Shown here in pieces: positions 1 to 16,402 of a stretch of DNA of 64,000 nt. Under the pieces are notes generated by a model. That model saw nothing but the letters and a program-made list of their open reading frames with translations, was not told the DNA's origin and made no database searches. The position numbers and the translations under genes were made by a program. The stretch comes from Ruania albidiflava DSM 18029. Lineage in GTDB: Bacteria > Actinomycetota > Actinomycetes > Actinomycetales > Beutenbergiaceae. The DNA lies in NCBI RefSeq assembly GCF_000421225.1, contig NZ_ATWL01000004.1, positions 1 to 64,000 of the forward strand. Direction: 5' to 3'. The stretch's first letter is position 1; every line of letters begins with the position of its first letter.

Positions 1-364
1 CCGGCTCAACAACCTCAGTCACCGCCTCAGTGGTCTCCGCCACCGGCTCAACAACCTCGGAGAGACCATCGGTCGCATCGGTAACAACGTCCGCCACCAC
101 GGAGGTCGGTTGTTGGTCAGACTGATCTGTCTCGTCAACGGCGCTAGAACCCTCATTGGAGGGTGCAACAACGCTCGTGGTCTGCTCAACAACATCCCCC
201 GCATCGTCGAGCAAGCCGCCGACTAGAGAATCGTCGGCCGAAGCCATCGAACTGAATGCTGCCCCGAGGATCGCTGCACCAGCGACGGTCAGCGTGCTAC
301 GCAACGCCCACCGCAGCGGACGGCGTGCACCGTCCGCCTGGTGCCGATCAACTCTGCGACGCAT
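1..364 (-). CDS. Secreted repeat protein, N-terminal part (runs off left edge)
   Basis: Reading leftward from an ATG at 364 gives 121 uninterrupted codons to the window edge, so the gene is cut. The first ~43 residues form a signal peptide: an Arg-rich n-region, a hydrophobic core (TLTVAGAAILGAAF) and a SMASA-type cleavage site followed by DD. The mature part is acidic and Val/Glu/Thr/Ser-rich, and the block TEVVEPVAETTEAVTEVVEP shows a short internal repeat (TEVVEP twice). No enzyme motif is visible. It is probably exported, with an extended repetitive region. The gene is divergent from the metalloprotease gene at 615. Its function is unknown, and the remaining sequence could add an anchor or a folded domain. 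Confidence 0.6.
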   Translation of the reverse strand, partial: MRRRVDRHQADGARRPLRWALRSTLTVAGAAILGAAFSSMASADDSLVGGLLDDAGDVVEQTTSVVAPSNEGSSAVDETDQSDQQPTSVVADVVTDATDGLSEVVEPVAETTEAVTEVVEP

Positions 365-614
365 TCCGGGATCCCCCACCCTTCCTGACAGGCTTCATGT
401 TACCCGCATCACATGCCATTGCAAGCCCCGCGATGATTTCGTCGGCGCGCACCTCTCCACGCGAGGACCATGGGCCCGCCACGACGCGCGGTGCCTCGGT
501 TCGTCAGGCCTGCGCCTACAGCTCCACTCGACAGGCCGGTCGATGGGCCGGAACTGCTGACTTTCAAGACAAATCGGTTGTCTCTGACGCGGCGTCACCT
601 TCTATCGTCGCGGC

Positions 615-1499
615 ATGACGATCGACGTGTTGAACACCGACCAGGGAATGCGCGATGTGCTGGAGGCGGCAGAGGAGGACCGCGCTGAGCGAGTGCGCCA
701 GATGCTCGCTCCAGCAGCTGGCATGTTCCAGTTCTTCCCAGGCGAGCTGGACCTGGCGGTCATGCACCGGCAGAGCCTGGGCTTCCCGATCGATCGTGAA
801 CTCGAGCAGTCTCGAAGCGCCCTGGAGGCGCTCGAGCGTGCTTCCGCGTGGGAGCGAGTACGGACCGCATTGACCGATGCTGTGTCGGCTCAGCTGGCAG
901 TGACCCCGACGATCACCGTTCCCGACCTCACAGTGTTGCTGGTCCTTGGTGACCCGACAGACTCCTACTTCATGGACGAGGCAAGGGGACTGTCCGGCAA
1001 TGGGTCGATGACTGGTTATCTGATGCTCACCCTGTGGCCCACCGCGGAGAACCTGGACCGCCTCGAGGCTGCGGCAGTGCACGAGCTGCATCACAACCTC
1101 AGATATGCACCGGGCGGTGTCATCTGGGATCCCGCCACTGTGAACGTGGGTGAGCACGTCGTCTCTGAAGGCCTCGCTGATGCGTTCGCCAGGTCGTTGT
1201 ACGGCAACGACCTCGGCTATAGCCCGATAGGGGTCGGTCACCTGAACGATGAGGCAGTGTTCGCGAAGGTGGTTTCCGGACTCGGCGTGACCGGGATGGA
1301 GAACTTTGGCGCATGGGTGCTCGGAGATGCGGCTGCCGAACGCTTCGGTGCTGCCAAGGTGGGGCTCCCGACCGGGGCGGGATACGCCGTCGGCAATCGC
1401 CTGGTGGACGCCTACCTGGCTGCGACCGGCAAGGATGTCACGGAAGTCCTGCACGTTCCGAGCAAGGAGATCATCGCAGTGGCGCTTGCGCACCACTGA
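615..1499 (+). CDS. Putative zinc metalloprotease, DUF2268/YjaZ-like
   Basis: This 294-residue protein has a gluzincin-type signature, VHELHHNLR (about residues 156-164), in which HExxH supplies two zinc ligands and the catalytic Glu. About 28 residues later comes SEGLADAFA, whose Glu is a good candidate third ligand. That arrangement matches the DUF2268 predicted Zn-dependent protease family. There is no signal peptide, so it is probably cytoplasmic. The chosen ATG lacks a clear Shine-Dalgarno and may be near-leaderless. It stands alone between a divergent secreted-protein gene and convergent parB, ending 4 bp from the parB stop. Substrate unknown. Confidence 0.7.
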   Translation: MTIDVLNTDQGMRDVLEAAEEDRAERVRQMLAPAAGMFQFFPGELDLAVMHRQSLGFPIDRELEQSRSALEALERASAWERVRTALTDAVSAQLAVTPTITVPDLTVLLVLGDPTDSYFMDEARGLSGNGSMTGYLMLTLWPTAENLDRLEAAAVHELHHNLRYAPGGVIWDPATVNVGEHVVSEGLADAFARSLYGNDLGYSPIGVGHLNDEAVFAKVVSGLGVTGMENFGAWVLGDAAAERFGAAKVGLPTGAGYAVGNRLVDAYLAATGKDVTEVLHVPSKEIIAVALAHH

Positions 1500-1503
1500 A
1501 CGC

Positions 1504-2898
1504 TCATTCCCCCACGTCTACCGCACTGTCGCCATCACCGTCGTTCTCAGTCATGTCTGCTCGATCGCGGAGCACACCGGGATCCTTCGGTACAAGTACC
1601 CCAAGGATGCGGTTGAGGTCCTGGACGCTGGCAAACTCAATCGTGACGTGTCCTTTGCGCTGTCCGAGGTTTACCTTGACTTTGGTGTCCAGGTTGTCGG
1701 ACAACCGAGCCGCGAGATCGTTCAGCGCCGCAGAGTGTGCCCCCGCTCGCGGTCGACGACGCAGCTCGGGCTGCATCGGGTCGTCGCCGAGCGTGACGAT
1801 CTCCTCGGTGGCGCGAACACTCAGCCCTTCGGCGACAATCCGTTGAGCGAGTCGTTCCATCGCCGCGCCGTCAGTGAGACCGAGGAGCGCGCGGGCGTGG
1901 CCGGCGCTGAGCACGCCCGCGGCGACCCGGCGTTGGACCAGCGGGGGTAGCTTCAGCAGCCTCAGCGTGTTGCTGATCTGCGGACGAGAGCGGGCGATAC
2001 GCACCGCCAGCTCATCGTGGGTGCAGCCAAAATCTTCCAGAAGTTGAGCGTAGGCGGCAGCCTCTTCAAGCGGGTTCAGCTGTGCGCGATGCAGGTTCTC
2101 CAGGAGTGCGTCGCGGAGCATGTCCTGCTCGGAGGTGCTGCGGATGATCGCTGGGACAGTGGTGTTGCCGGCAATCCGGGAGGCCCGCCAGCGACGCTCA
2201 CCCATGATCAGCTCATAAGTGGCTTCTCCGTCGCTGTCGGTCCCGGAGGGACGAACCACGATCGGCTGCAGCACGCCCACCTCACGGATGGAACTAGCCA
2301 GTTCGTTCAGCTCATCGTCGTCGAACACCTGCCGGGGCTGCTTCGCGTTCGGATGCACCGCTGCCACCGAAATCTCAGCGAACGTGGCACCCGGCACGGG
2401 ACGGAGGTCGCCATCGGGCTCCGCGGGAGAGGGGATGACGACGTCTTCCGCTGACCCGGTCTCCCGCGGATCCGCTTTCGAACTTCTTGGTGCCTGGCTG
2501 GTGTCGGGTGTGGTGGGGCTCGGAGGCGCCGGCTGGATGGCTGTCGTGGCGCTGGGCTCGCCGTTATCGTTAGTCGCCCCTTCCAGCTCGGCAAGGAGTG
2601 CTTCACTGGCACTAGTCGAGGCACTACTCTGCGGGGTCCGATCAGTCTCTACATCGTCGGCAGGGGAGGGAGCAGAGCGGATCACCACCTCGTCGACGGC
2701 TTCAAGGGGGCTATCGGCCGTCGGGCTGCTGACGGAACCCGAGGGCGCTGATGCACCACTCCCCGGGTCACCTGGCGTACCCGTTCGCTCCCGATCCTGA
2801 AAAAAGACGTCGACCGGCCGTTGACTGCCCGTCCCCGTCGGTCCCGACGGGATGAGGGCACCCAAGCCACGACCAAGTGCCCGACGGCGCTCGCTCAC
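1504..2898 (-). CDS. parB: Chromosome partitioning protein ParB with long disordered N-terminal linker
   Basis: ParB binds parS and, in characterised members, uses CTP to clamp and spread on DNA. The N-terminus carries the ParA-interacting basic box ([13 protein letters not shown], residues 5-17). The CTPase/N-domain starts near residue 170, with GERRWRASR at 233-241 and [14 protein letters not shown] at 267-280. A helix-turn-helix follows at about 292-316. At 464 residues it is longer than many ParBs because residues ~20-168 are a Ser/Thr/Pro/Glu/Ala linker between the ParA box and the CTPase domain. The GTG start overlaps the parA stop by 4 bp (GTGA) and has a good AGGAG, indicating translational coupling. 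Confidence 0.97.
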
Positions 2899-3989
2899 TG
2901 TTCTGCTCCTTCGTTGACGCTGTCGGCGAGCGGGCCGGCCACGTCGCCGCCGCTCCTCGCCGAGGCAGGGCTGGTGCCGGCATCTGTATCCGGCGGGGGT
3001 TCAATTCCGCGGCGTGCGATCTCACGCGCCGCTTCCATATACGCGAGCGCGCCCGTCGAACCGGCGTCATAGGTCAGGACGGTCTGCCCATAGGACGGTG
3101 CCTCCGAGATGCGGACGGAGCGCGGGACGGCGGTGCGTAGCGTCTGGTCGGGGAAGTGTTCACGAACTTCCTCCGCCACCTGTTGCGCGAGGTTTGTGCG
3201 ACCGTCGAACATTGTCAGCATGATCGTGGAAACGTGCAGAGCCGGGTTCAGGTGGGCGCGAATCAGGTTGATGCTGTTCAACAGCTGACTCAGGCCCTCC
3301 AGTGCGTAGTACTCGCACTGAATCGGGATGAGGACCTCACGAGCAGTGACAAAGGCATTGACTGTCAGTAGGCCCAGGCTCGGTGGGCAGTCCACGAAGA
3401 CGTAGTCGATGCGTGGGTCGCCCCGGCGGGAACGTCCCCGGAGGTAGGCAGCCAAGGCATTGCGGAGCCGATTCTCGCGCGCCACCAGCGAGACCAGCTC
3501 GATCTCGGCCCCCGAGAGTTCGATCGTCGCCGGTGCACAGTAGAGGCCGGGGATGACGTCCGACTCCTGAATGACATCTTCCAACGGGACGTCGTTGATG
3601 AGCACGTCGTAGGTCGACGGCACACCGCTATGGTGCTCGATCCCGAGAGCCGTCGAGGCGTTTCCTTGAGGATCGTTATCAATAACGAGGACACGGAGCC
3701 CCGACTTGGCGAGAGCTGCTGCAAGATTCACAGCCGTCGTAGTTTTGCCGACACCCCCTTTTTGGTTTGCCACCGTGAAGACACGAGTCTGCAGTGGTGG
3801 CGGAAACTTGCTGCCGGAGAGCTCGATACGGCGGCGCGTGTCCTGGGCGAGCTGGGCCGCAAGAGGGGTGGTCTCGTCCATGATCGGGATGGCTTCCATC
3901 AGAGCCAGCCGTCGCTCTTGCTCCGGGGAGAGGGGCGTCGTCACGTCCGCAATCGAGGCCGGGCCCGCCGCGCCGTCATCCTGGTCCAC
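2895..3989 (-). CDS. parA: Chromosome partitioning ATPase ParA
   Basis: ParA-family ATPase (364 aa) that moves ParB-parS complexes over the nucleoid. The deviant Walker A is [10 protein letters not shown] (about residues 75-84). A Walker A' / switch segment is seen in [11 protein letters not shown], and Walker B in [16 protein letters not shown]. About 70 residues precede the ATPase fold, as in other actinobacterial ParAs. The GTG start at 3989 has AAGGG 7 nt upstream. It is the first gene of parAB. The upstream 370 bp carry five DnaA boxes and the first parS-like site, so expression may be controlled by DnaA and by the partition complex (inference). Confidence 0.97.
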
Positions 3990-4090
3990 GTATCATCCCT
4001 TCACCGCCAACAACCCAAGAGTAGACGGCCTAGCGCATCATCACGAACACTTCGCTCGTACCGTGGACATGGACGCCTACGACGCCGCGC

Positions 4091-4362
4091 TGTGGATAAC
4101 CTGTGGGTTGCGTGTGCACAAGTCGCCGTCATGTGTATAAACCCGGGTAGCCTGTGGATAACCTGCGGACCCTCCCTGACTGGTTGAACCGTGACTGCGC
4201 CTGAAACCGCATGAAGTCGCGGCTATTCATTGCTTTTCGACACCGTCCGCATCGGTCAACTCGCAGCAGGTCTTGTCCACATCTTGGAGCGATCATGTGG
4301 ATAACCGCATCTTCAGGGCTTCTTCGCGGAGGCGGTTTCACGTGAACCGCGCGTTATCCACA
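4091..4362. promoter_or_regulatory. Cluster of five perfect DnaA boxes upstream of parA
   Basis: Exact nonamers (TTATCCACA/TTGTCCACA or complements) occur at 4091-4099 (minus), 4153-4161 (minus), 4273-4281 (plus), 4296-4304 (minus) and 4354-4362 (plus). A one-mismatch copy lies at 4132-4140. The first box is about 100 bp from the parA start codon, which suggests that DnaA regulates parAB or is held here. It may also be an auxiliary part of the origin. Binding is inferred from consensus only. Confidence 0.75.
4335..4348. promoter_or_regulatory. parS-like site 1
   Basis: GTTTCACGTGAACC: one mismatch to GTTTCACGTGAAAC. It lies inside the DnaA-box cluster, 6 bp left of the last box. Confidence 0.8.
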
Positions 4363-4489
4363 GAGCGCACATGCACCCGAGCTCACGCTGGTAGCGCGGT
4401 CGGCTTCACCAACATCTGAGTACAGCTGAGCCGGATGCCTGGTGACTCGAATGGCACCTCACGCTCTTGGAGCCCTGACTGTCGCGCCC

Positions 4490-4503
4490 GTTCCACGTGA
4501 AAC
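4490..4503. promoter_or_regulatory. parS-like site 2
   Basis: GTTCCACGTGAAAC: one mismatch. The flanks extend the dyad (CCC on the left, GGG on the right). Confidence 0.85.
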
Positions 4504-4673
4504 GGGCCCGTCGCGAGAGCCCGACCGTTCGGCTCGACGCCTGCACAGGCCGGCGTCCAATAGCCGATCGGGCCGAGTAGGCCACAGCTGCGTTCTCTCT
4601 GTCTGTTACGCACAGCCGCCACCTCAGAGCGTTTCCGCATCCATCGTGCGGTGAGCTGTCAGAAGACTCGGCC

Positions 4674-4687
4674 GTTTCACGTGAAAC
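4674..4687. promoter_or_regulatory. parS: parS site 3 (perfect consensus)
   Basis: GTTTCACGTGAAAC, an exact match. It is embedded in a perfect 32-bp palindrome (4665-4696) whose outer arms read GACTCGGCC and its complement. This is the best candidate for a primary ParB loading site. Confidence 0.95.
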
Positions 4688-4991
4688 GGCCGAGTCGGCG
4701 CTCTGGCACAGAGACGTACTCCGGTTATCCTCATCGGTGCCGACACCTGCTGCAATACCGTCCCGCCTACAGATTCTCAGGACTCCACTACACCATATGG
4801 CGCACAGAACGAATTGACGCCGCCTGCCCTCGCGCGCTCCAACCCGCATCTGCTAGACCAGAAAGAGCACACGGGGGAGCAGCCATGTGCACGTGTGCAC
4901 GTTCGGTCTCCCGAAGCGGGAGCACCGCTGACCCAGCCCGTCCATTCGCACTGCGGACCGAGAGCACAGCGGTCCGTGCACAGTGCACTCG

Positions 4992-5005
4992 GTTTCACGT
5001 GGAAC
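4992..5005. promoter_or_regulatory. parS-like site 4
   Basis: GTTTCACGTGGAAC: one mismatch to the parS consensus. Confidence 0.85.
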
Positions 5006-5152
5006 AGTGCGAAACTCTCGCTCAGCGGCGTCCTTCAAACCCCGAACCACTCATCCATGGAGCCGCACCGATGGAGCCCCGTGATGCCACCATCTTCAGT
5101 TAGTGCCGTCTGAACTCTCGGCGGTGCTATCGTCCGTTCCTACAAGCTGGCG

Positions 5153-5166
5153 GTTCCACGTGAAAC
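5153..5166. promoter_or_regulatory. parS-like site 5
   Basis: GTTCCACGTGAAAC: one mismatch, the same variant as site 2. Confidence 0.85.
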
Positions 5167-5315
5167 GGGCTCGGGCAGTCTGCTCCTGACTGCTCGACCG
5201 CGAAGGTTGAACTCAAGTCCCAGTCGCACATCCATCTCATCTCAGCAGAACGATGCGGCAACCCGCGTGTCCGTCCGCCCTCCTCTTGTGGCCCGATCGA
5301 CAGTCTCACAGATTC

Positions 5316-5329
5316 GTTCCACGCGAAAC
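5316..5329. promoter_or_regulatory. parS-like site 6
   Basis: GTTCCACGCGAAAC: two mismatches, including one in the central CACGTG. Confidence 0.7.
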
Positions 5330-5464
5330 GGAACCGATCATGCAAGTGGCGTGTACTCTTGCCTCGCCCACCGGGCGCCTCGAGCCCACACCGCCCCAGG
5401 GCTGTCGATGACAACCAGAGACACTCCAGCTGCGCTGTATCTGGGCCTGCTTCCTCGCAGACTG

Positions 5465-5478
5465 GATTCACGTGAAAC
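5465..5478. promoter_or_regulatory. parS-like site 7
   Basis: GATTCACGTGAAAC: one mismatch. Confidence 0.8.
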
Positions 5479-5679
5479 AGCGGCTGCTTCTATCTCCTGA
5501 GGCACCGCAAGGATTGGGGTCCACCAGAGACGTGCGATAGTCATCACCCACTCGAGCGGGTACTCCCACCCGCCAGGACAGATACGCCCCGGAGCGGACT
5601 GACTGGACGCGGAAACGGGCAACTGTTTGACCGCATCGACGCAGCTGGCGTCATTCATCACGCGGCACCCGGAAGCACC

Positions 5680-5693
5680 GTTCCACGTGGAAC
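5680..5693. promoter_or_regulatory. parS-like site 8
   Basis: GTTCCACGTGGAAC: two compensating changes that keep a perfect palindrome. Confidence 0.8.
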
Positions 5694-5868
5694 GGGCCGG
5701 ACACTCTTACGGTCACGACCTTGGGCCTATCGGTCGCCCATAGGCACCGACGTCTCTCACGCTCTGACACACTCAGGATGACCGACACATCAGCGACGAT
5801 CGCATCGCCAGCGGTCGCGTATCAGGCGTCGTCACGAGTGGGCAGGCTGCGGGGCGACGGTCGACCTG

Positions 5869-5882
5869 GTTCCACGTGGAAC
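5869..5882. promoter_or_regulatory. parS-like site 9
   Basis: GTTCCACGTGGAAC, identical to site 8 and likewise a perfect palindrome. Confidence 0.8.
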
Positions 5883-6509
5883 AACCTCCGCACCGACGAA
5901 CACTCGACACGATAGGTAGCGGCTCACAAGCTGTGCCGGAAAGAGAAATCCTCATCCACACCGGAACCAGACAGCGGGCTGCACCGACGTCCTGCCGACG
6001 GTGGACTTGTCCGCTCCGCCCAGCTCATCGCCATCACGCTCGAGCGCGATCGCTGAATCCCGGTCGCGGCCTCAACCAATCACCGATGCGCAGCGCAACG
6101 CACTGCGTCCACGCATCCTTGATTCACGTAACGAACCGGTACTCGGCACCTCGAACCACGTGCACGTCCGGCGGGAGCCATCGACGACCATTCCGACGCA
6201 GAAAACCGATCACGTCGCGACAATGATGGTGGTCGGCACGCTGCGTGGACTCGATCCGATGCTCGCACAGGGTGATACCGGATGCTTCACAAGAAATACC
6301 CATGCGGGACTGGCCGAGCGTACCTATCGGATCGGCTGGCGGACGTGACACCACCACAACGTCGTGGACTGAGCCGCCCAACCGATGAACCACAGGGACA
6401 CGTTCGTTGCGGCCCGGCCACTCCTCAGACTGACCGGCGGACGGCGCGATACCCCGGAGGTGCGGACCTCCCGAACTCGATTCGAGCCACCGTTTCCTTC
6501 ACGATCTCC

Positions 6510-6523
6510 GTTGCACGTGAAAC
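6510..6523. promoter_or_regulatory. parS-like site 10
   Basis: GTTGCACGTGAAAC: one mismatch. The 627 bp between this and site 9 hold only weaker CACGTG-type words (6121-6134, 6153-6166). Confidence 0.75.
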
Positions 6524-6768
6524 GGTTATGCTGGCGTCAGCACGACTTCCTCACCCCTGAAAGATGTGCACCGACACCATCTGCCACGTCAGGAATGTGC
6601 CAACCATCATCAGCGTGAAGCCCGGAACCTACCAGCTCTCGCTACGCCGAGGCGGCTGGTTGAACCGAAGCATCACCAGCCGGAACTGCGACCGGAGCGA
6701 GATTCAACATCAGCGTGCTACGCAGCCTCGATAACGATCACGCAGATCGCGGTGCGGTATCCAGCACC

Positions 6769-6782
6769 GTTCCACGCGAAAC
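6769..6782. promoter_or_regulatory. parS-like site 11
   Basis: GTTCCACGCGAAAC: two mismatches, the same variant as site 6. It lies 41 bp from the rsmG stop codon and closes the array. Confidence 0.7.
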
Positions 6783-6823
6783 CGGCACGACGTAATCGTA
6801 CGTCTGTTCGAACCGATGAGGAG

Positions 6824-7468
6824 CTACTTCTTCCGCGCCTCAACCACCCGCGTGACATCGCCATCGCCGAGCATGTCCACCTCGTGGATCGTCACGTCGA
6901 CTACACCGAGCTTGCGCAGCACCTTCGAGGCTTTCTCGACCTCCTCCGCCGCGCGCTGGCCCTTCTGCGCCAGCAGCCGCCCCCCGGCCCCGACCAGCGG
7001 AAGACACATCGGCGAGAGCTTGTCCAAAGCAGCCACCGCCCGTGCAGTGACCGCATCCACGGTGAGCCTGCCGTGCAGCTCCTCCGCCCGCACCTGGTGC
7101 ACGGACACATTGTCCAGGTCGAGCTCGTCGACCACCTCGAGAAGCCAGTCCACCCGGCGCTGCATCGGCTCTACGAGATGCACATCGAGCTCCGGACGCA
7201 TCAACGCGAGCACTACGCCCGGCAGCCCCGCTCCGGAGCCGACATCCGCGAGCGATCCTTCCTCTGGCAGGAACTGTGCCACTGCCGCCGAGTTCAGCAC
7301 ATGGCGCGACCAGAGCTTCGGCAGCTCTCGCGGTCCGATCAACCCTCGTAGCTCACCCTCTTGAGCAAGCAGTTCGGCGAAGTGTGCGGCGCCACCCCAG
7401 GCGAGGCCGAGGATTTCCCGACTCCGGTCGTCGTCCACGGCCACCGAATCCGGCGTGATCTCCTCCAT
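6824..7468 (-). CDS. rsmG: 16S rRNA (guanine-N7) methyltransferase RsmG (GidB)
   Basis: SAM-dependent enzyme that methylates a guanine (E. coli G527) of 16S rRNA; loss gives low-level streptomycin resistance in characterised species. The SAM-binding motif DVGSGAGLPGVVLA lies near residues 75-88 of about 214. RHVLNSAAVAQFLP precedes it, and VTARAVAALDKLSP is the conserved late motif. A TTG codon sits directly before the ATG; I chose the ATG at 7468. It follows jag by 12 bp and is the last gene of the rpmH-rnpA-yidD-yidC-jag-rsmG run. Its 3' end faces the parS array. Confidence 0.95.
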   Translation of the reverse strand: MEEITPDSVAVDDDRSREILGLAWGGAAHFAELLAQEGELRGLIGPRELPKLWSRHVLNSAAVAQFLPEEGSLADVGSGAGLPGVVLALMRPELDVHLVEPMQRRVDWLLEVVDELDLDNVSVHQVRAEELHGRLTVDAVTARAVAALDKLSPMCLPLVGAGGRLLAQKGQRAAEEVEKASKVLRKLGVVDVTIHEVDMLGDGDVTRVVEARKK

Positions 7469-7480
7469 CAACCCACCGTC

Positions 7481-8020
7481 TCAGCCAGCCGCACGGATCA
7501 CCACATGCCGGTTCGGCTCTGCACCTTCGGACTCACTGACCAGGCCCGCTGCGGCTACTGCATCATGGACCACCTTGCGCTCGAACGGATTCATCGGCTC
7601 CAACGCGACGTCTGCTCCGTTCTCCTGCACCCGGACGATCGCGTCCTGCGCCAGGGCGGTGAGCTCAACGCGCCGATTCTTCCGATACCCGGCCACATCG
7701 AGCATCAGCCTGCTGCGATCACCAGTCTTCGCCTGAACAGCGAGTCGGGTCAGCTCCTGCAGCGCATCCAGCACCTCACCCTTGCGGCCCACCAGGGCAC
7801 TGAGGGTCTCGTCGTCCTCATCGGTGACTACTGCAACGGCAGCCCGACCATGGTCGACGTCGATGTCGATGTCACCATCGAGATCGGCGATGTCCAACAG
7901 CTCCTCGAGATAGTCAGCAGCGACTTCGCCCTCCTCCTCGAGTCGAGCCCGTTCATCCGAACTATCGCTGCCCTCTGGCATGTGGCCCTCGGAGCTCACT
8001 GCTGCAGTCTCGTTCGTCAT
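7481..8020 (-). CDS. jag: KH/R3H RNA-binding protein Jag (KhpB)
   Basis: Single-stranded nucleic acid binding protein of the KhpB/Jag family, linked in other Gram-positives to elongation and sRNA-dependent control. The N-terminal ~50 residues are acidic. A KH-type domain follows (ALVGRKGEVLDALQELTRLA), then the R3H segment (NRRVELTALAQDAI through PMNPFERKVVHDAVA). I chose the ATG at 8020 (MTNETAAVSS) because AGAGG lies 8 nt upstream; an in-frame ATG at 8047 lacks a comparable site. It sits between yidC and rsmG, its usual place. Confidence 0.92.
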   Translation of the reverse strand: MTNETAAVSSEGHMPEGSDSSDERARLEEEGEVAADYLEELLDIADLDGDIDIDVDHGRAAVAVVTDEDDETLSALVGRKGEVLDALQELTRLAVQAKTGDRSRLMLDVAGYRKNRRVELTALAQDAIVRVQENGADVALEPMNPFERKVVHDAVAAAGLVSESEGAEPNRHVVIRAAG

Positions 8021-8109
8021 CGTGTCAGCCTCTCGTCTCATTCTCACAGCCGCGCTGGGCGGTGTGATGGACCGGCGGCGCCGGTGTCGTCATAGTTGCA
8101 GGCGCCCGG

Positions 8110-9129
8110 TCAGCCGGTCGCAGCCCCTTTTCCCTTGCGCTTGGAGCGTGGTGCATTCCGCTTCGGCTGGGTCCGCTGCCCACTGGCCGGCTTCGTACTC
8201 TCAGCCTCGGCCGACTCGTCTCCACCCTCGAGCACAGCGCCCTCGTCCTCCAGGGAGATACCGCGGCCCTTCTTCGCCTTGGCCTTCTTCGCCTTGCGTT
8301 CCAGGTACTTCTGCTCCGCCTCAGAACCCGGCGTGGGCGAGTTGCGGATGACGATGAACTGCTGCCCAAGGGTCCACAGGTTCGACGTGGTCCAGTAGAT
8401 CAGCACACCCATCGGGAAGTTCACACCGATGAACAGGAAGATCAGCGGGAAGATGTACATCAACATCTTCTGCTGCCGGGCCATCGGGTTGTCCTGCGAG
8501 GCCGCTGGCATGTTCTTCATCGTCAGCTGGCGCTGGGTGAACAGCGTGGTCGCCGACATCAGCACGATCAGCGTGGCTGTCACCAGCCGCACGGCGAGCG
8601 CGTCATCGCCCATGAAGCTGGACGCCAGCGGGGCGCCGAAGATTGTCGAGGACTCAGCCTGTGCGGCCAGCGTCTGCGTCAGTGGCCCGATGCTGTCGCG
8701 ACCGTGGTACGAACCACTGGCCACATCGGGCAACGAGTACAGCACCCGGTACAGGGCGAAGAACACCGGCATCTGCGCGATCAGCGGCAGGCAGGAGGCG
8801 AACGGGGAGGTACCAGCCTCCTTGTAGATCGCCATCATCTCCTGCTGCATCGCTTGGCGAGACGCAGGATCTGTCTTTCCCTTGTACTTCTTCTGCAGCT
8901 TCTGGATCTCTGGTTGCACCACCTGCATGCCGCGCGAGGCCTTGATCTGCCGCACGAACAGCGGGATCAGCAGGATCCGGATCACCACCACCAGCGCAAC
9001 GATGGAGAGCACCCACGTCCAGCCACCAGCAGGGTCCATGCCGATGAACGTGAGCGCATCGTGCGCCTGCACCATGATCCAGGCCACGGCCACTTTCAGC
9101 GGCCACAGCACAGTGTCGAAGAAACCCAT
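8110..9129 (-). CDS. yidC: Membrane protein insertase YidC/Oxa1
   Basis: Insertase for integral membrane proteins, acting alone or with SecYEG. From MGFFDTVLWPLKVAVAWIMV the protein has the short Gram-positive layout of five hydrophobic segments. The Arg-containing cytoplasmic region (QIKASRGMQVVQPEIQKLQ) and helices starting LPLIAQMPVFFALYRVLY are diagnostic. The C-terminus is a Lys/Arg-rich tail (KRNAPRSKRKGKG) that probably contacts the ribosome. The frame opens further upstream at 9213, but the ATG at 9129 starts the first hydrophobic helix and has an AGGAG upstream (spacing a little long at 13 nt). It follows yidD in the conserved operon. Confidence 0.95.
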   Translation of the reverse strand: MGFFDTVLWPLKVAVAWIMVQAHDALTFIGMDPAGGWTWVLSIVALVVVIRILLIPLFVRQIKASRGMQVVQPEIQKLQKKYKGKTDPASRQAMQQEMMAIYKEAGTSPFASCLPLIAQMPVFFALYRVLYSLPDVASGSYHGRDSIGPLTQTLAAQAESSTIFGAPLASSFMGDDALAVRLVTATLIVLMSATTLFTQRQLTMKNMPAASQDNPMARQQKMLMYIFPLIFLFIGVNFPMGVLIYWTTSNLWTLGQQFIVIRNSPTPGSEAEQKYLERKAKKAKAKKGRGISLEDEGAVLEGGDESAEAESTKPASGQRTQPKRNAPRSKRKGKGAATG

Positions 9130-9151
9130 CTGCCGGCTTGGTCTCCTAAGG

Positions 9152-9556
9152 TCAGATCCGCTGGTGCGGACCCTGGTGGGAAAGTCTGTGATCGAGACTA
9201 CGGTCTGCCCCATAGGCTAAGCGGTCCGCGTGCGACGGCGAACCATCTGCCTGGCATCGGTCGTCACCGTGCTCGCCGGTCGTCCCGGCACGTCGCCGCC
9301 AAGGCAGGTTGGTCTGGGCAGGAACCTCGTCCACGCCACCAGCGGACCACGGGTTGCAGCGCAGCACCCGCCACGCCGCGAGCCCTGTGCCCGTGAGCGG
9401 ACCGTGCCGCCGTAACGCTTCCAAGCCATAGGCCGAACAGCTCGGGTAATACCGGCACCGCGGCGCCAGCCAAGGCGAGACGATCAGCTGGTAACCGCGC
9501 ACCATCATGGTGAGCAGCCAGGTAACCGGATGACGAGAGCTGTGCCGCGCCGTCAT
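9152..9556 (-). CDS. yidD: Membrane protein insertion efficiency factor YidD
   Basis: Small membrane-associated protein that assists YidC-dependent insertion. The family core is clear: MVRGYQLIVSPWLAPRCRYYPSC, then SAYGLEALRRHG and RVLRCNPWSAGGVDEVP (residues ~18-80). Two to three conserved Cys residues are present. The protein is 134 aa; the last ~50 residues are hydrophilic and look unconserved. Its start overlaps the rnpA stop by 4 bp (ATGA), indicating coupling. Confidence 0.95.
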   Translation of the reverse strand: MTARHSSRHPVTWLLTMMVRGYQLIVSPWLAPRCRYYPSCSAYGLEALRRHGPLTGTGLAAWRVLRCNPWSAGGVDEVPAQTNLPWRRRAGTTGEHGDDRCQADGSPSHADRLAYGADRSLDHRLSHQGPHQRI

Positions 9557-9960
9557 CGTTGCACCCTCCCAGCATCCGGTGGGTCTCCGGCAGCCACGGG
9601 TACGGAGCGCCCCCTCCGCCGGTACTCCTTCTGCTGCGCCTTCCGCCAGCTGCGACGCAGGTCGCTGCGCAGCTCCGTAAAGCTAGCCCCGGCTGCCGCC
9701 GGCAGTGCTCGCACCACCAGTGCTGTGCCCTCGGGCAGCTCATCAAGGTCCTCAGCCATCACGGCACGCATCCGCCGCTTCACCAAGTTCCGCTGCACTG
9801 CCCCGCCCACGGCCCGGGACACAACAAAACCCACCCGGGTGACCGTGTCCCGGGTGGAGTGGTAGTGCACCACCAGCCGCGCAGTGCTGCTGCGGGCACC
9901 GGAAGAGATCGCCGCGCCGAACTCGTCGCCGTGGCGCATCCGATACTCCGCCGGCAGCAC
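9553..9960 (-). CDS. rnpA: Ribonuclease P protein component
   Basis: Protein subunit of RNase P, which matures tRNA 5' ends. The RNR motif region appears as AVQRNLVKRRMRAVMAEDL (about residues 54-72), preceded by RVGFVVSRAVGGAV. The N-terminal MLPAEYRMRHGDEFGAAI is typical. Length 135 aa is normal. It lies 13 bp downstream of rpmH, as in most bacteria. The last ~25 residues are Arg/Pro-rich and unconserved. Confidence 0.95.
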   Translation of the reverse strand: MLPAEYRMRHGDEFGAAISSGARSSTARLVVHYHSTRDTVTRVGFVVSRAVGGAVQRNLVKRRMRAVMAEDLDELPEGTALVVRALPAAAGASFTELRSDLRRSWRKAQQKEYRRRGRSVPVAAGDPPDAGRVQR

Positions 9961-9973
9961 CGCCCTGAGCGTC

Positions 9974-10111
9974 TCAGGCAGTCAGAGCGCGACGGCCCTT
10001 GCGGCGCCGGGACGCAACGATGGCGCGGCCAGCGCGAGTGCGCATCCGCAGTCGGAAGCCATGCACCTTGGCTCGGCGCCGGTTGTTGGGCTGGAAGGTC
10101 CGCTTGCTCAC
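9974..10111 (-). CDS. rpmH: 50S ribosomal protein L34
   Basis: Forty-five residues from a GTG at 10111: [18 protein letters not shown], then [20 protein letters not shown], the near-invariant L34 sequence. GGAG sits about 8 nt before the GTG. It is the first gene of the minus-strand operon that continues to rsmG, divergent from dnaA as at almost all bacterial origins. Confidence 0.98.
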
Positions 10112-10526
10112 GGTTCTGCTCCAAGACGTCGGGAAGTGTGCCGCCCCATCGTGTCGTGGAGCGCAAGACGTTACGGACACGGCGCACCAGCACGTGGGCA
10201 CAGTCGTCCATATGACTGACCCACGATACGTGGTGGCTCGAAGCACGGTCAAACCGCGCAACCATGGGCTTGCTCACCATCGGCATCTGCCTGTGGACAA
10301 CCCGCTGGCCGAGACCACCGATACACCGATACGCTCGCCTCTCCAGGTATGTGGTCCATCAGCCCGAGAACCGCAGCAGCTCAATGCTCGACGCCGTGGC
10401 ACGCGGTTACACACAGACTGTGGATAGAGTTGTGGATCATCGCCTGGTCCAACCAGCTGCACCCGCGGCATGGACCTACCGGGTGCCCAACCATCACCAT
10501 CAGTCGTCCTTCAGGCAGGGGGTCCA
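10112..10526. promoter_or_regulatory. rpmH-dnaA divergent intergenic region with DnaA boxes
   Basis: A 415-bp gap between divergent genes, so it must hold promoters for both. DnaA-box words occur at 10292-10300 (TGTGGACAA, exact), 10419-10427 (TGTGGATAG, one mismatch) and 10431-10439 (TGTGGATCA, one mismatch). Autoregulation of dnaA is the expected role. I do not assign precise -35/-10 elements. Confidence 0.7.
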
Positions 10527-12002
10527 GTGTCAGAGTCGCCAGTCGATCCCACCGATCTCAACTATGCCTGGCAGCGCGCTTACGAGATCCTGAACAGCCG
10601 CGGGAACCTCGGTGGTGCTCAGGCCGGCTTCATCCGCCTGACCAAACCACTCGGCGTCATCGACGACACGATCCTGCTGGCCGTACCGAGCGAGTTCGCC
10701 AAGGACTACATCGAGACCCGGGCGCGGGAGTCGATCATCTCCGCGCTGTCCACCGCGCTCGACCGCACTGTGCGGATCGCAGTCACCGTGGATCCCTCGC
10801 TGGAGGACAAGGACGACCAACCCGAACGTGCCGAGACCGACCAGGTGCCACGAAGCTCAGGCCCTGCGACCCAGCACGGCGACCAGGCGCCCAGCAGCGG
10901 CGCCCAGCAGCGCACTGTCGAACCACCGGCACCGCCACGGGTGGACAACTACGCCACTGGCGTGGACCCGAACGCGCGGCTGAACCCGAACTACTCCTTC
11001 GACACGTTCGTGATCGGATCCTCGAACCGATTCGCACACGCGGCCGCGACCGCCGTCGCCGAAGCACCGGCGAAAGCGTACAACCCGCTGTTCATCTACG
11101 GACAGTCCGGGCTCGGCAAGACACACCTGCTGCATGCCATCGGCCACTACGCGAAGAGCCTCTACCCCGGAATCCGGGTGCGGTACGTGAACTCCGAGGA
11201 GTTCACCAACGACTTCATCAACTCCATCCGCGACGACAAGGCAGAGGCGTTCCAGCGCCGCTACCGCGAGGTCGACGTGCTGCTCATCGACGACATCCAG
11301 TTCCTGCAGGGCAAGGAACAGACGATGGAGGAGTTCTTCCACACCTTCAACACCCTGCACAACGACAACAAGCAGGTGGTCATCACCTCCGACTTGCCGC
11401 CCAAGCACCTGAACGGGTTCGAGGACCGGATGCGGTCCAGGTTCGAGTGGGGTCTGATCACCGACGTACAACCGCCGGACCTGGAGACGCGGATCGCCAT
11501 CCTGCGGAAGAAGGCGGGCAGCGAGTCGCTGCAGGCACCCAGCGAGGTGCTGGAGTACATCGCCTCGAAGATCTCCTCGAACATCCGCGAGCTGGAGGGT
11601 GCCCTCATCCGGGTGACCGCGTTCGCGAACCTGAACCGGCAGTCGGTGGACCTGCCCCTGGCGGAGATGGTGCTCAAGGACCTGATCACCGACACCGACG
11701 GTGCCGAGATCACGCCGTCGATGATCATGGCGCAGACCTCCTCCTACTTCGGTGTGACGATCGAGGCGCTGTGCAGCGCAGACCGTTCCCGAGTGCTGGT
11801 CAACGCCCGCCAGATCGCCATGTACCTGTGCCGCGAGCTGACCGAGCTGTCCCTGCCGAAGATCGGACAGCTCTTCGGAGGCCGCGACCACACCACGGTG
11901 ATGCACGCGAACAAGAAGATCCGCCAGCAGATGGCCGAACGGCGCTCCACCTTCAACCAGGTCACCGAGCTGACCAACCGGATCAAACAGCAACGCACCT
12001 GA
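10527..12002 (+). CDS. dnaA: Chromosomal replication initiator DnaA
   Basis: AAA+ initiator that binds DnaA boxes at oriC, melts the duplex and loads helicase. Domain I starts [13 protein letters not shown], and a ~60-residue Gln/Pro/Ser-rich domain II follows. Walker A is GQSGLGKTH in [18 protein letters not shown], and Walker B is [18 protein letters not shown]. Domain IV carries the signature [17 protein letters not shown] chose the GTG at 10527 ([10 protein letters not shown]) because a G-rich Shine-Dalgarno (AGGGGG) precedes it and it starts domain I directly; an in-frame ATG at 10470 would add 19 unconserved residues. About 491 aa, normal. Confidence 0.97.
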
Positions 12003-12472
12003 CAAACCACGCGAAATGCACAGTTGTGGACAACGCTGTGGACAGCCGTGGATAACTACCGCGCAGCACGTGGACAACATGGTCCTTCTCCGTGGACGCC
12101 GCTAGGGCCGGCAGATGACATTCACATCTTCCCCGTGGCGCTGTGCACGCTCGTCCCACCACCTGTCCACAACCGGCTGCCCACACTGACCTGCACAGAT
12201 GCCGCTCGCCCACAGTCTCCACATCTCCTATGACGACCACGAGACCTTTAACGATCCGAGGATGTGAACAACCAACAGCTACCGGTCCGAGCCCTGAGCA
12301 ACCCTGCTGATGAACACATCGACAGATCCAGCACCCATCACCCACCGCTGTCGTCTAACCTCGGAGGCAGACCTGTGTCCTGCTCCGCCGAGGAGACGTG
12401 GACAACCGCCCGCTGCTGACTCACTATGCTCAGTAGCCCCAAGTACGACGATCAGAAAGTAGGGCCCGCATC
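12003..12472. other. oriC: Origin of replication oriC (dnaA-dnaN gap)
   Basis: The 470-bp gene-free gap between dnaA and dnaN carries DnaA boxes in both orientations: TGTGGACAA 12025-12033, TGTGGACAG 12037-12045, CGTGGATAA 12047-12055, CGTGGACAA 12069-12077, CTGTCCACA 12163-12171 and CGTGGACAA 12397-12405. Weaker words lie between. Several boxes carry C at position 1 of the reversed nonamer, the high-GC variant described for Streptomyces. A short A+T-richer stretch around 12220-12260 is a possible unwinding element (inference). Location and box density make this the canonical oriC. Confidence 0.9.
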
Positions 12473-13600
12473 GTGAAGTTCAGGGTGGAGCGAGACGTAC
12501 TGGCCGACGCCGTCACCTGGACTTCGCGCAGCCTGCCGACACGTCCACCGTCTCCCGTGCTCGCCGGGGTGCTGCTGACAGCGGACGCCGAGGGCAGCCT
12601 GGTGCTCTCCACCTTCGACTACGAGGTCTCGGCCCGGTCCACGGTGACCGCCGAGGTGGAAGAGGCCGGTTCGGTGCTCGTCTCCGGCCGCCTGCTGGCC
12701 GAGATCGCCCGAGCGTTGCCGAACAAGCCGGTCGAGGTGGCCGTCGAGGACAACCGGGTGATGGTCGTCTGCGGCGCCTCCCGGTTCACGCTGCTCACCA
12801 TGCCGGTCGAGGAGTACCCGTCCCTACCAGATCTTCCGGAGGTCACCGGATCTATCGACGGCGACGGGTTCGCCCGCGCCATCGCCCAGGTGACGATCGC
12901 CGCCGGCCGGGACGAGACCTTGCCGCTGCTGACCGGTGTCAAGCTCGAGATCGAGGGCGACACGCTCACCATGCTGGCCACCGACCGCTACCGCCTGGCG
13001 ATGCGAGAAGTGCACTGGAACCCCGCCAGCCCGGGGGTCTCCCGCACAGCGCTGGTGCGAGCACGCACCCTCTCTGATGTGGCGAAGAACCTTTCCAGCG
13101 CCGGGTCGGTGGAGCTCGCCCTGGCCGAGGGCGGGGACATCATCGGCTTCGAGGCAGGGGGCCGGCGCACGACCTCGCTGCTGCTGGAGGGGGACTACCC
13201 CCCGGTGCGGCGGCTGTTCCCGGAGCAGACGTCCACGCACACGGTCACGGCGACCTCCGACCTGGTCGAGGCCGCCAAGCGGGTGGCCCTGGTCGCCGAG
13301 CGGAACACCCCGATCAGGTTGTCGTTCACCGAGGGCCAGGTGGTGCTCGAAGCCGGTCAGGGAGACGACGCGCAGGCGTCGGAAGCACTGGAGTCCACCC
13401 TCGTGGGTGAGGACATCAGCACCGCGTTCAACCCGCAGTACCTGCTCGACGGGCTCAGCTCGCTGGACTCCGAGTTCGTCCGGCTGTCCTTCACCCACCC
13501 GTCAAAGCCGGCTGTGATGACCGGGCAGGACTCCATCGACGGTAGCGATCACGCCGAAGAGTTCCGCTACCTGCTGATGCCGATCCGCTTCGGAGCCTGA
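12473..13600 (+). CDS. dnaN: DNA polymerase III sliding clamp (beta subunit)
   Basis: Ring-shaped processivity clamp, 375 aa, the normal length. The start KFRVERDVLADAVTWTSRSL and internal TDRYRLAMREVHW are characteristic. The C-terminus ends with the conserved HAEEFRYLLMPIRF, which in the family closes the ligand-binding cleft. The GTG start at 12473 has AGGG upstream. It is the first gene after oriC, followed 30 bp later by gnd and then recF. Confidence 0.97.
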   Translation: MKFRVERDVLADAVTWTSRSLPTRPPSPVLAGVLLTADAEGSLVLSTFDYEVSARSTVTAEVEEAGSVLVSGRLLAEIARALPNKPVEVAVEDNRVMVVCGASRFTLLTMPVEEYPSLPDLPEVTGSIDGDGFARAIAQVTIAAGRDETLPLLTGVKLEIEGDTLTMLATDRYRLAMREVHWNPASPGVSRTALVRARTLSDVAKNLSSAGSVELALAEGGDIIGFEAGGRRTTSLLLEGDYPPVRRLFPEQTSTHTVTATSDLVEAAKRVALVAERNTPIRLSFTEGQVVLEAGQGDDAQASEALESTLVGEDISTAFNPQYLLDGLSSLDSEFVRLSFTHPSKPAVMTGQDSIDGSDHAEEFRYLLMPIRFGA

Positions 13601-13630
13601 GAGCAGCACGTCAACGAAAGGATCGCGCAG

Positions 13631-14524
13631 ATGCACATCGGACTCGTGGGACTGGGCCGCATGGGCGGCAACATGCGCGATCGCCTGCGGCTCAAGGGCC
13701 ACGAGGTCACCGGATACGACCACAACCCCGAGGTCTCTGACGTCGCCTCGCTCGCCGAGATGGTCCAGGCACTGGACGGTGACCGGCGGGTGGTGTGGGT
13801 GATGGTCCCGGCCGGGGAGGTCACCGAGTCTGTGATCTCGGAGGTGGCCGGGCTGCTTGGTCCCGGTGACGTGATCATCGACGGCGGCAACTCCAAGTAC
13901 GACGACGACCTGCGCCGGGCCGAGGAGCTCGGTCGGCGGGACCTGAGGTACGTGGATGCCGGTGTCTCCGGAGGAGTCTGGGGAGAGACGAACGGGTACG
14001 GGCTGATGGTCGGCGGCGATGACGCCACGATCGAGTACCTGATGCCTGTCTTCGATGCGCTGCGACCGGACGGCCCGCGCAACGAGGGTTTCGTGCACGC
14101 CGGTCCGGTGGGCGCTGGCCACTACGCGAAGATGGTGCACAACGGCATCGAGTACGGCGTGATGCAGGCCTACGCCGAGGGCTACGAGATCCTCGCGGCA
14201 CGCGATGACCTGATCGGGGACGTCGGTGCGATCTTCGAAGCGTGGCAGCGCGGCACCGTGGTTCGTTCCTGGCTGCTGGAGCTGCTGGTCAAGGCACTCA
14301 ACGAGGACCCCGACCTGGACGACATCCGCGGTTTCGTGGCCGACTCTGGTGAGGGACGCTGGACCGTGGAGGAAGCTGTGCAGCGGGCCGTGCCGGCGCC
14401 GGTGATCAGCGCTGCCCTGTTCGCCCGGTTCGACTCCCGGCAGGAGGACTCCCCGGCGATGAAGGCGGTGGCCGCACTGCGTCAGCAGTTCGGCGGCCAC
14501 GCCACGAAACCCTCCGCTGAATGA
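13631..14524 (+). CDS. gnd: 6-phosphogluconate dehydrogenase (decarboxylating), short GndA type
   Basis: Oxidises 6-phosphogluconate to ribulose 5-phosphate with CO2 release. The Rossmann motif GLVGLGRMGGNM is at residues 4-15. IIDGGNSKYDDDLRRAEEL and the substrate-binding/catalytic region DAGVSGGVWGETNGYGLMVGG follow, with YAKMVHNGIEYGVMQAYAEG containing the catalytic Lys. At 297 aa it is the short form found between dnaN and recF in many actinobacteria, which often prefers NAD (family knowledge, not visible here). Confidence 0.95.
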   Translation: MHIGLVGLGRMGGNMRDRLRLKGHEVTGYDHNPEVSDVASLAEMVQALDGDRRVVWVMVPAGEVTESVISEVAGLLGPGDVIIDGGNSKYDDDLRRAEELGRRDLRYVDAGVSGGVWGETNGYGLMVGGDDATIEYLMPVFDALRPDGPRNEGFVHAGPVGAGHYAKMVHNGIEYGVMQAYAEGYEILAARDDLIGDVGAIFEAWQRGTVVRSWLLELLVKALNEDPDLDDIRGFVADSGEGRWTVEEAVQRAVPAPVISAALFARFDSRQEDSPAMKAVAALRQQFGGHATKPSAE

Positions 14525-14589
14525 CGGCGGAACCCACCTGGTCGTCCTCGTGCACCTTCCGCATGCCTCGGCAGGGCCGGTGAGGGCTC

Positions 14590-15792
14590 GTGTACGTCTC
14601 TGACCTGGCGCTGACCGACTTCCGGTCCTACCCCGAGGTGCTGCTGGCGCTGGACCCCGGTGTGACCGCGTTCGTGGGGCCGAACGGACAGGGCAAGACG
14701 AACCTGGTGGAGTCCCTGGGCTACCTGGCTACCTTCTCCTCACACCGGGTCTCCGCGGACGCCGCGCTGGTCCGTGCTGGTGCGCAGCGGGCGATCATCC
14801 AGGCGAAAGTGGTGCGGGACGGTCGTAGCTCGCTGCTGGAGCTGGAGGTGGTGGCGGGCAAGGCGAACCGGGCCCGGTTCAACCGCAGCCCCTTGCCCAG
14901 GGCCCGAGACCTGGCCGGGCGGCTGCGCACGGTCCTGTTCGCCCCCGAGGACCTCAGCCTGGTCAAGGGGGATCCGGAGGGCCGGCGCCGGTTCCTGGAC
15001 GAGCTGCTGGTGCTGCTCAGCCCCAAGCTCGCTGCGGTGCGCTCGGACTACGAACGGGTGATCCGGCAACGCAACGCGCTGCTGAAGTCCGCCGGTACCC
15101 AGCGTCGTTCGGGTACCAAGCTGGACCTGCGCACCCTGGACGTGTGGGACGACAAGGCGGCGGTCGCCGGTGCCCAGCTGGTGGCGGCCCGGGTGCAGCT
15201 GGTGAATGCGTTGCGCCCGCACCTGGCCCACGCCTACACGCAGGTCAGCTCCGGTCAGAGCGAGGCGCGGATGTTCTACCGTGCCAGCGTGGACCGGGCG
15301 ATGGGCAGCACCGGACGCTCGGCGGCCGGCCGACCCGCTGAGCCCGGGCCCGAGGACCCTGAAGCGCTCACCGACGCCGGTGTGGTTGAGGCCCGGCTGC
15401 TGGAAGCGATGGCGCACCTGCGTGGCAAGGAGATCGAGCGCGGGGTGAGCATGGTGGGTCCGCACCGCGACGAGCTCGAGCTGTATCTGGACGACCTGCC
15501 CGCCAAGGGGTACGCCTCGCACGGAGAGTCCTGGTCGCTGGCGCTGGGGCTGCGGCTGGCCAGCTATGAGCTGCTCAAGGCTGATGACGACTGGCACGAG
15601 AGCTCAGAACCAGTGCTCATCCTCGATGACGTGTTCGCCGAGTTGGACACCCGCCGACGGGACCGGCTCGCCGAGCTGATCGCTCCCGCTGAGCAGGTGC
15701 TGATCACCGCAGCGGTGGCCGAGGACGTTCCCGAGGTGCTCGAAGGGGCACGGGTGGACGTGATGGGGTCGGTGGCCACCTGTGTCAGGTGA
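14590..15792 (+). CDS. recF: DNA replication and repair protein RecF
   Basis: SMC-like ATPase that helps load RecA at gaps. Walker A is [12 protein letters not shown] (about residues 30-41). The ABC signature region lies near [19 protein letters not shown], and Walker B near [21 protein letters not shown]. The 400-aa length is normal. The GTG start gives [14 protein letters not shown], the expected N-terminus. Its stop overlaps the start of the dciA gene by 11 bp. Confidence 0.96.
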
Positions 15793-16402
15793 CCAGGGCC
15801 TCCCGCCCACTGAGGAGCCGGCAGGTGGGGAGGGACGGCCGGCCGAGGAGGTCCGGTCCGGCCAACTGCCGGAGCAGGCCAGCACCACCGAGGACCTACC
15901 GGACCAGGAGGATCCGGACAGTGCGGCACGGGTCGCGCTGGCTCGTGCACGAGAAGCAGCCCGTGCCAAGGGGATGGCCACTACGCGACGCAAGCCCCGC
16001 CGTCGAGCCGGTGACGTGTACCTGCCCAGCGCACCGGAGTCCGCCCGGGACCCGGCTCCCCTCGGCGATGCCGTGCAGGCACTGGCCCGCCAGCTCGGCT
16101 GGAGACAACCGCTGTCCATCGGTGGTGTGGTCGGGCGCTGGCGGGAGGTGGTCGGCGACCAGATCGCCGACCACTGCGTGCCGGAGACCTTCGAGGACGG
16201 TGTGCTGGTGGTCCGCACCGACTCCACCGCCTGGGCCACCCAGATCCGTCTGCTCACCCCACAGCTGGACCGCCGGCTCGCCGAGGAGGTCGGTGAAGGG
16301 GTGGTCACCTCGATCAAGGTGCTCGGCCCTGGCGGCCCGTCATGGAGCCGCGGCACCAGGCGGGTGCAAGGCGGGCGCGGGCCACGGGACACCTACGGCT
16401 GA
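15782..16402 (+). CDS. DUF721 protein, DciA-like helicase loader candidate
   Basis: 206 aa. The conserved DUF721/DciA core occupies about residues 95-185: [20 protein letters not shown], then [40 protein letters not shown] and a C-terminal [12 protein letters not shown]. The N-terminal ~90 residues are polar and probably disordered, with a basic patch ([10 protein letters not shown]). DciA proteins act as replicative-helicase operators in many bacteria lacking DnaC; assigning that role here rests on family and position. The GTG start overlaps recF. Confidence 0.85.

Follow-up and report, generated by a model that had tools for sequence, protein, structure and literature searches.

The 64-kb stretch of Ruania albidiflava DSM 18029 analysed here (contig NZ_ATWL01000004.1, positions 1 to 64,000; hereafter the window) carries the segregation genes parA and parB and, between parA and rsmG, a 2.8-kb gap that holds eleven parS-like sites and a cluster of predicted DnaA boxes. 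We read this interval as the chromosome's single ParB-loading centromere, with a cluster at its parA side on which DnaA most likely assembles; judging from sequence, we put the probability of this reading at roughly 0.85.

The parS-like array in the parA–rsmG gap

A scan of the window with the 14-bp motif GTTTCACGTGAAAC at up to three mismatches returned 11 matches, all within 4335–6782. One was perfect, six had one mismatch, four had two and none had three. Dinucleotide shuffles of the 64 kb yielded a mean of 0.81 matches at the same threshold and 3 at most. Successive sites are spaced by 155, 184, 318, 161, 163, 149, 215, 189, 641 and 259 bp. When the scan was extended to the whole assembly (4,174,923 bases in 60 contigs, 98.5% complete), 12 places matched with up to two mismatches; 11 of these are in the parA–rsmG gap and the twelfth, on contig C27, has only one half intact. 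The array spans 2.45 kb and lies 5.2–7.7 kb from the dnaA–dnaN gap, which starts at 12003. The original prediction for this interval had listed eleven 14-bp matches with 0–2 mismatches at 4335–6782, placed them near oriC and put nine of the ten gaps at 149–318 bp; the motif scan and the measured distances bore this out. Because the sites are nearly confined to this gap and are kept in the family (below), neither of two outcomes that would have counted against that prediction, an equal density of sites elsewhere in the genome or absence of the array from relatives, was found.

The interval brings together what is expected of a chromosomal ParABS centromere: the parS core, cognate parA and parB that adjoin the array and encode standard ParA and ParB domains (Pfam), proximity to the origin, few sites elsewhere and retention in relatives. 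The array is most likely a ParB-loading centromere. That the 14-mers are instead sites of some other palindrome-binding regulator, or derive from chance or from a repeat, is scarcely credible: they agree with the known parS core, adjoin parAB, are confined to the gap and kept in the family, and no flank homology was found between the window sites (three sites with mixed halves compared; masked self-comparison).

The gap was also predicted to be free of genes and lower in guanine–cytosine (GC) content, and both claims held. GC by codon phase is flat across the whole gap (0.605/0.616/0.622), against spreads of 0.20–0.44 in seven neighbouring genes. A Pfam search (E≤0.01) assigned no family to ten open reading frames of 92–261 amino acids in or overlapping the gap (21 such frames were listed), and Rfam gave nothing above the gathering threshold in 1–15000. 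As far as these three tests reach, an overlooked gene or a known RNA family in the window gap was rejected. No tRNA was found in a search of 1–16000. The GC content of the gap is 61.4%, compared with 69.0% for the window. A perfect palindrome of 32 bases (4665–4696) is centred on site 3; no further site lies in a comparable perfect palindrome among 25 of the 30 inverted pairs listed.

Table 1. Coordinates of the features discussed, in window positions.
Feature	Position	Strand	Remarks
parB	1504..2898	-	464 amino acids; ParB_N, HTH_ParB and ParB_C domains (Pfam)
parA	2895..3989	-	364 amino acids; AAA_31/CbiA ATPase (Pfam)
DnaA box	4091..4099	-	TTATCCACA; in genus alignment
DnaA box	4113..4121	-	TTGTGCACA, 1 mismatch; offset 124 from position 3989
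DnaA box	4132..4140	-	TTATACACA, 1 mismatch
DnaA box	4153..4161	-	TTATCCACA
DnaA box	4273..4281	+	TTGTCCACA
DnaA box	4296..4304	-	TTATCCACA
parS-like site 1	4335..4348	.	1 mismatch
DnaA box	4354..4362	+	TTATCCACA; just beyond first parS
parS-like site 2	4490..4503	.	GTTCCACGTGAAAC
parS-like site 3	4674..4687	.	perfect match
parS-like site 4	4992..5005	.	GTTTCACGTGGAAC
parS-like site 5	5153..5166	.	GTTCCACGTGAAAC
parS-like site 6	5316..5329	.	2 mismatches
parS-like site 7	5465..5478	.	1 mismatch
parS-like site 8	5680..5693	.	GTTCCACGTGGAAC, C/C dyad
parS-like site 9	5869..5882	.	GTTCCACGTGGAAC, C/C dyad
parS-like site 10	6510..6523	.	1 mismatch
parS-like site 11	6769..6782	.	2 mismatches
rsmG (gidB)	6824..7471	-	right border of gap; GidB (Pfam)
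dnaA	10470..12002	+	Pfam
Canonical oriC region	12003..12472	.	between dnaA and presumed dnaN; own conserved DnaA boxes; dnaN start approximate

The genes run in the order parB, parA, gap, rsmG, jag, yidC, dnaA. The parB product is akin to solved Spo0J/ParB structures, and the identities of jag and dnaA rest on Pfam. We take yidC, and the genes from yidC to dnaA, to be those expected from conserved gene order, and presume dnaN from its position and its sequence. Convergent to parB, at 615–1499, is a gene for a DUF2268 predicted Zn-dependent protease (Pfam).

Retention, turnover and growth of the array

We searched 59 genomes, the strain's own included. The family is represented by 24 of these, 23 with parA, and the parA region was examined in 22 family genomes besides our own; the genus comprises the window and G001–G007 (eight genomes). 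G008 was left out of the gap work (no parA match at E≤1e-80; 580 contigs), and G014 and G021 out of the gap tables, rsmG not being found in the stretch examined. Sites with at most one mismatch are present in 56 of the 59 genomes. In 20 of the 23 family genomes with parA, the stretch from parA to rsmG holds every such site of the genome, save that five of the 20 have a single extra one within parA itself (442–475 bp from the match start). The gaps of these 20 genomes measure 2.0–6.9 kb and contain 3–14 sites at up to two mismatches, with 8–14 in all eight genomes of the genus. G018 and G021 have six sites within 4 kb of parA, with rsmG either at a distance of 10.7 kb or not detected in the stretch examined. 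In G014, six sites fill 3.3 kb at 17.6–21 kb from parA (contig C19:314672-318009); here parA and an intact array have become separated.

Clusters of 3–9 sites within 1.1–8.2 kb, presumably near the origin, were seen in six genomes from other families of the order, one of which has a stray site about 154 kb away. We also surveyed 80 named actinobacterial loci, covering at most 10 kb on each side of parA. The gap holds 0–6 sites in 79 of the 80, those with parA and rsmG; at least 11 sites in any 2,448-bp stretch occur at one locus (Dermabacteraceae, 15 sites), and 9–10 at three more. The genome scan and the retention in the family support the earlier idea of a concentrated, syntenic centromere beside parAB, and the comparison of the gap in relatives that it proposed found the array between parA and rsmG in 20 of 23 genomes. 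Its claim of unusual density fared less well, this density being matched or exceeded in one of the 80 loci and also in Myxococcus xanthus.

Most of the gap does not hold its sequence. Outside the sites, global alignment gave 44–47% identity in 10 of 11 gap pairs, which by our own estimate, rather than a shuffled control, is about the expectation for unrelated GC-rich DNA. The exception is G020/G017, with 53% identity and all ten of ten sites coinciding. Identity within sites ranges from 0.39 to 0.92 across pairs, and local alignment recovers the parA-proximal 40–440 bp in all eight pairs tried. To judge from these alignments, the number and location of the sites are kept, and the spacing and the letters of most of the gap are not. 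As the spacers are mostly unalignable even between congeners, the array appears to persist amid turnover of its DNA. Conserved spacing, which had been expected, was not found: site positions are mostly unshared between congeners, and only the first site holds its distance to the parA match (offset 346–348), as seen when the window is compared with its two nearest relatives. Spacing is more even than random in several genomes (combined p = 1.5e-4 with one genome per genus), with two genera showing the opposite (0.91 and 0.97) and G012 too small for the test. The genomes were hand-picked and one genus was represented by the lowest of three, so this p value is optimistic and our conclusions do not lean on it.

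Some arrays show how sites may be gained. G011 (L132) has six identical copies of a 28-bp unit in tandem, all carrying GTTCCACGTGAAAC in one orientation, at offsets 600–740 upstream of the parA match; it is apparently a parS array caught in expansion. G002 and G017 each have an internal repeat whose offset equals one site-to-site distance exactly (159 bp in G002, 70 bp in G017); a site has been copied there together with its flank. The units of G011 and the repeat offsets of G002 and G017 indicate that arrays grow at least partly by duplication.

The two halves of a site can be of a T or a C type. Among the 86 sites of the genus the C-half frequency is 0.42, and sites with one half of each type (mixed sites) number 62 against 36 expected, with 3 C/C dyads against 15.1 and 7 T/T sites against 21.5. 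Permutation within genomes gave a mean of 37.5 mixed sites, and 0 of 20,000 permutations reached 62. Mixed sites are also in excess outside the genus (42 versus 30.6). Taken by itself the window, with 3 mixed sites where 3.4 are expected, points in neither direction; two of the genus's three C/C sites are here. The original prediction had noted two perfect dyads kept through compensating changes and took them as a sign of selection. The two C/C dyads do exist (5680 and 5869); selection for perfect dyads was rejected, since the genus favours mixed half-sites and depletes C/C.

Mixed sites are co-oriented within the genomes of the genus, 44:18 overall (0 of 200,000 simulations). The window alone shows no such effect. 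Elsewhere co-orientation fell short of significance, both in the remaining family genomes (fraction 0.10; 10 genomes, G011 omitted) and among the named loci (fraction 0.32; 33 of the 80 have mixed sites). Because sites are not phylogenetically independent, the genus statistics overstate the number of independent events. In G001 (L120) the orientation is flipped (1:9), with the first site oriented as in G004 and G006. G001 is nested in the genus in a FastTree tree of four concatenated protein pieces (G007, G014 and G021 excluded for too many gaps), and an inversion or re-amplification is possible there. GC skew and orientation correlate at -0.63 in genomes with at least five mixed sites; mutational strand bias as the sole cause of co-orientation was rejected, since in G001 the skew is negative yet the mixed sites point the other way.

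We give about even odds to the idea that the excess of mixed sites and their shared orientation reflect how the arrays arose, by duplication and with G001 inverted or re-amplified later, and not a functional polarity. The identical co-oriented units of G011 and the exact repeat offsets of G002 and G017 fit this idea, as does G001, flipped while nested in the genus, its first site unflipped and its gap the weakest in GC skew of the genus. Set against it, mixed sites in most genus genomes have flanks whose identity is close to random, masked self-comparison yields no or few internal repeats, the paired sites of the G002 duplication differ in type, and mutational strand bias could contribute where the plus strand is C-rich.

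DnaA boxes beside parA

Seven DnaA boxes are predicted at 4091–4362, from the parA side of the gap to just beyond the first parS site, and four of them are perfect copies of TTATCCACA. All eight genomes of the genus have 5–8 boxes within 450 nt upstream of the parA match; dinucleotide shuffles of these regions gave means of 0.11–0.20 and maxima of 1–3. In each of the eight the cluster and the first parS site are at most about 175 bp apart. By eye, the blocks that stay invariant in the genus alignment, once past the conserved motif next to parA, correspond almost entirely to cores of DnaA boxes. Four same-strand boxes of the window lie 22, 19 and 21 bp apart, and three comparable boxes in G005 and G002 lie 21 and 40–41 bp apart, spacings near multiples of two helical turns. 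The strong pair at 4091/4153 occurs once in the strain's own genome. These comparisons indicate that the cluster is conserved as a cluster in the genus, and its place in the parA-side 375 bp speaks against the earlier suggestion that the gap is maintained only for segregation. A second small group, of four DnaA-box-like matches with one perfect, is found far from oriC at 56121–56258.

We consider it very unlikely that these boxes form a second or bipartite origin with the array beside it. The window clade has seven to eight boxes, four of them at 19–22 bp spacing, and the local adenine–thymine maximum is 0.53, compared with 0.55 in the dnaA–dnaN gap, as an origin might show. However, the dnaA–dnaN gap contains a well conserved oriC across the genus, where boxes as well as further blocks are conserved in the seven genomes aligned (G007, on a short contig with no dnaA, was left out), and cumulative GC skew changes direction near 13.5 kb rather than at 4 kb (positions 1–16000 only). 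The parA-side cluster is neither the sole conserved box region nor at the skew switch.

A second alternative takes the boxes at 4091–4362 as a DnaA-titration or nucleotide-exchange locus that controls initiation and not segregation. The datA and DARS loci alter the nucleotide state of DnaA or the timing of initiation, and have IHF/Fis sites in E. coli; the cluster is, as a locus of that kind would be, a non-coding group of DnaA boxes outside oriC. We regard this alternative as unlikely, though far from negligible. The strong TTATCCACA boxes are 7.6–7.9 kb from the dnaA–dnaN gap, whose boxes are mostly imperfect, and the cluster has boxes in both orientations and is confined to one genus of the family. 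On this account, however, its position no more than 450 bp upstream of parA and about 175 bp from the first parS site in all eight genomes would be a coincidence, and 19 of 21 Streptomyces loci have kept a box pair upstream of the parA match.

Under the centromere reading, the arrangement would work as follows. Generally in ParABS systems, it is established that ParB loads at parS and slides as a clamp, and that ParA provides transport. Here ParB encoded by the neighbouring gene would load at the eleven sites, within 2.45 kb of non-coding DNA about 5–8 kb from oriC, and slide outward as a cytidine triphosphate (CTP) clamp; ParA would move the ParB complex, which probably recruits SMC. The intervening DNA would act as spacer, free to drift in exact positions and letters, and DnaA would assemble on the seven-box cluster at the parA side. 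Mera et al. are said to have found in 2014 that the centromere of Caulobacter crescentus also binds DnaA. The placement of the cluster suggests that DnaA may tie initiation to segregation or to parAB expression; we infer this coupling, as we do binding by the strain's own ParB and DnaA. DnaA here may act on parAB transcription, on the centromere or as a sink.

Several observations weigh against this reading. Two mismatches are found in 4 of the 11 window sites, a share above that of any tabulated relative (the C/C dyads account for two of these). In 10 of the 11 aligned pairs of gaps 0–4 sites coincide, and in G006/G005 the identity within sites, at 0.39, is below the 0.46 outside them. The exact strong box pair is found in only three of the eight genus genomes (once each), and boxes and spacings differ elsewhere. 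Thirteen other family genomes have 0–2 boxes; since other genera of the family have arrays with so few, the link to DnaA cannot be essential to arrays in general. Finally, oriC in the dnaA–dnaN gap is conserved, so no origin function is required of the boxes on the parA side.

We hold a more ambitious version of the centromere reading to be less likely than not, though far from remote. The genus may have wired DnaA into its centromere, with helically phased boxes at the parA edge setting the timing of movement or the dose of ParAB, invented independently of Caulobacter and perhaps foreshadowed by the Streptomyces box pair, and with parS selectively asymmetric and co-oriented. If true, co-oriented asymmetric parS sites would give the centromere a direction.

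A gene-free centromere of 2.45 kb would be a unit that can be deleted and transplanted, relating parS number and spacing to SMC loading and to the density of ParB clamps. Within the family there is a natural series on array birth and turnover (3–14 sites and gaps of 2.0–6.9 kb in the 20 compact-gap genomes, and the 28-bp tandem array). The conserved DnaA cluster at the array edge allows a direct test of replication–segregation coupling outside Caulobacter and Vibrio.

Comparison with known systems

Dense parS arrays are already known. Myxococcus xanthus has 22 parS sites in 3 kb near parAB, and the cluster DNA is bound by ParB in vitro (PMC3899335, available text). Like the window, it has one dense array near parAB, and its consensus, TGTTCCACGTGGAACG, includes the C/C dyad found at two window sites. 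Unlike the window, its array lies about 4 kb upstream of parA, its parA locus is about 35 kb from oriC, and it belongs to another phylum; the available text of the same source mentions no DnaA-box cluster. Corynebacterium glutamicum shares with the window an actinobacterial ParABS system and has ten origin-near sites, parS1–10, proven by chromatin immunoprecipitation (ChIP), nine of them intergenic; one parS suffices for normal growth (PMC7083940, available text). In contrast to those of the window, its sites are identical in sequence, cover 35 kb and lie 73 kb from oriC (PMC7083940).

Other Micrococcales have comparable densities in another place. The Dermabacteraceae locus L029 and the Brevibacterium loci L038 and L039 have 10–15 sites within 2.45 kb near parAB but, unlike the window, 0 sites in the parA–rsmG gap; those of L029 and L038 are at or past the end of parB. 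L029 packs 15 parS-like sites into 1.2 kb beyond parB (12615–13799).

Streptomyces (21 named loci: L065, L072–L080 and L082–L092) has the same parS core and two sites in the parA–rsmG gap of each locus, yet its sites are dispersed, 4–9 over 13–21 kb including those two. Its box pair, 18 bp apart and 180–210 bp upstream of the parA match, occurs in 19 of the 21 loci, at 198/180 bp in 18. This makes two or so boxes, unlike the five to eight of the genus described here.

The open-licence literature, among the matches listed, holds no account of a parS array or of DnaA boxes at parA in the family. The combination of an array with a conserved DnaA cluster is a variant for which we found no description in the literature searched, and the DnaA cluster at the array edge is its less expected part. 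A parallel for that part is Caulobacter, where DnaA binds the centromere and low DnaA levels move the centromere without replication (review PMC6399470, available text). As in Caulobacter crescentus, the window has DnaA boxes in an origin-near parS region, and a role for DnaA in starting segregation has been proposed there (PMC6399470); unlike in Caulobacter crescentus, the seven predicted boxes here, at 4091–4362, sit together as a block where a long array borders parA, in an unrelated lineage.

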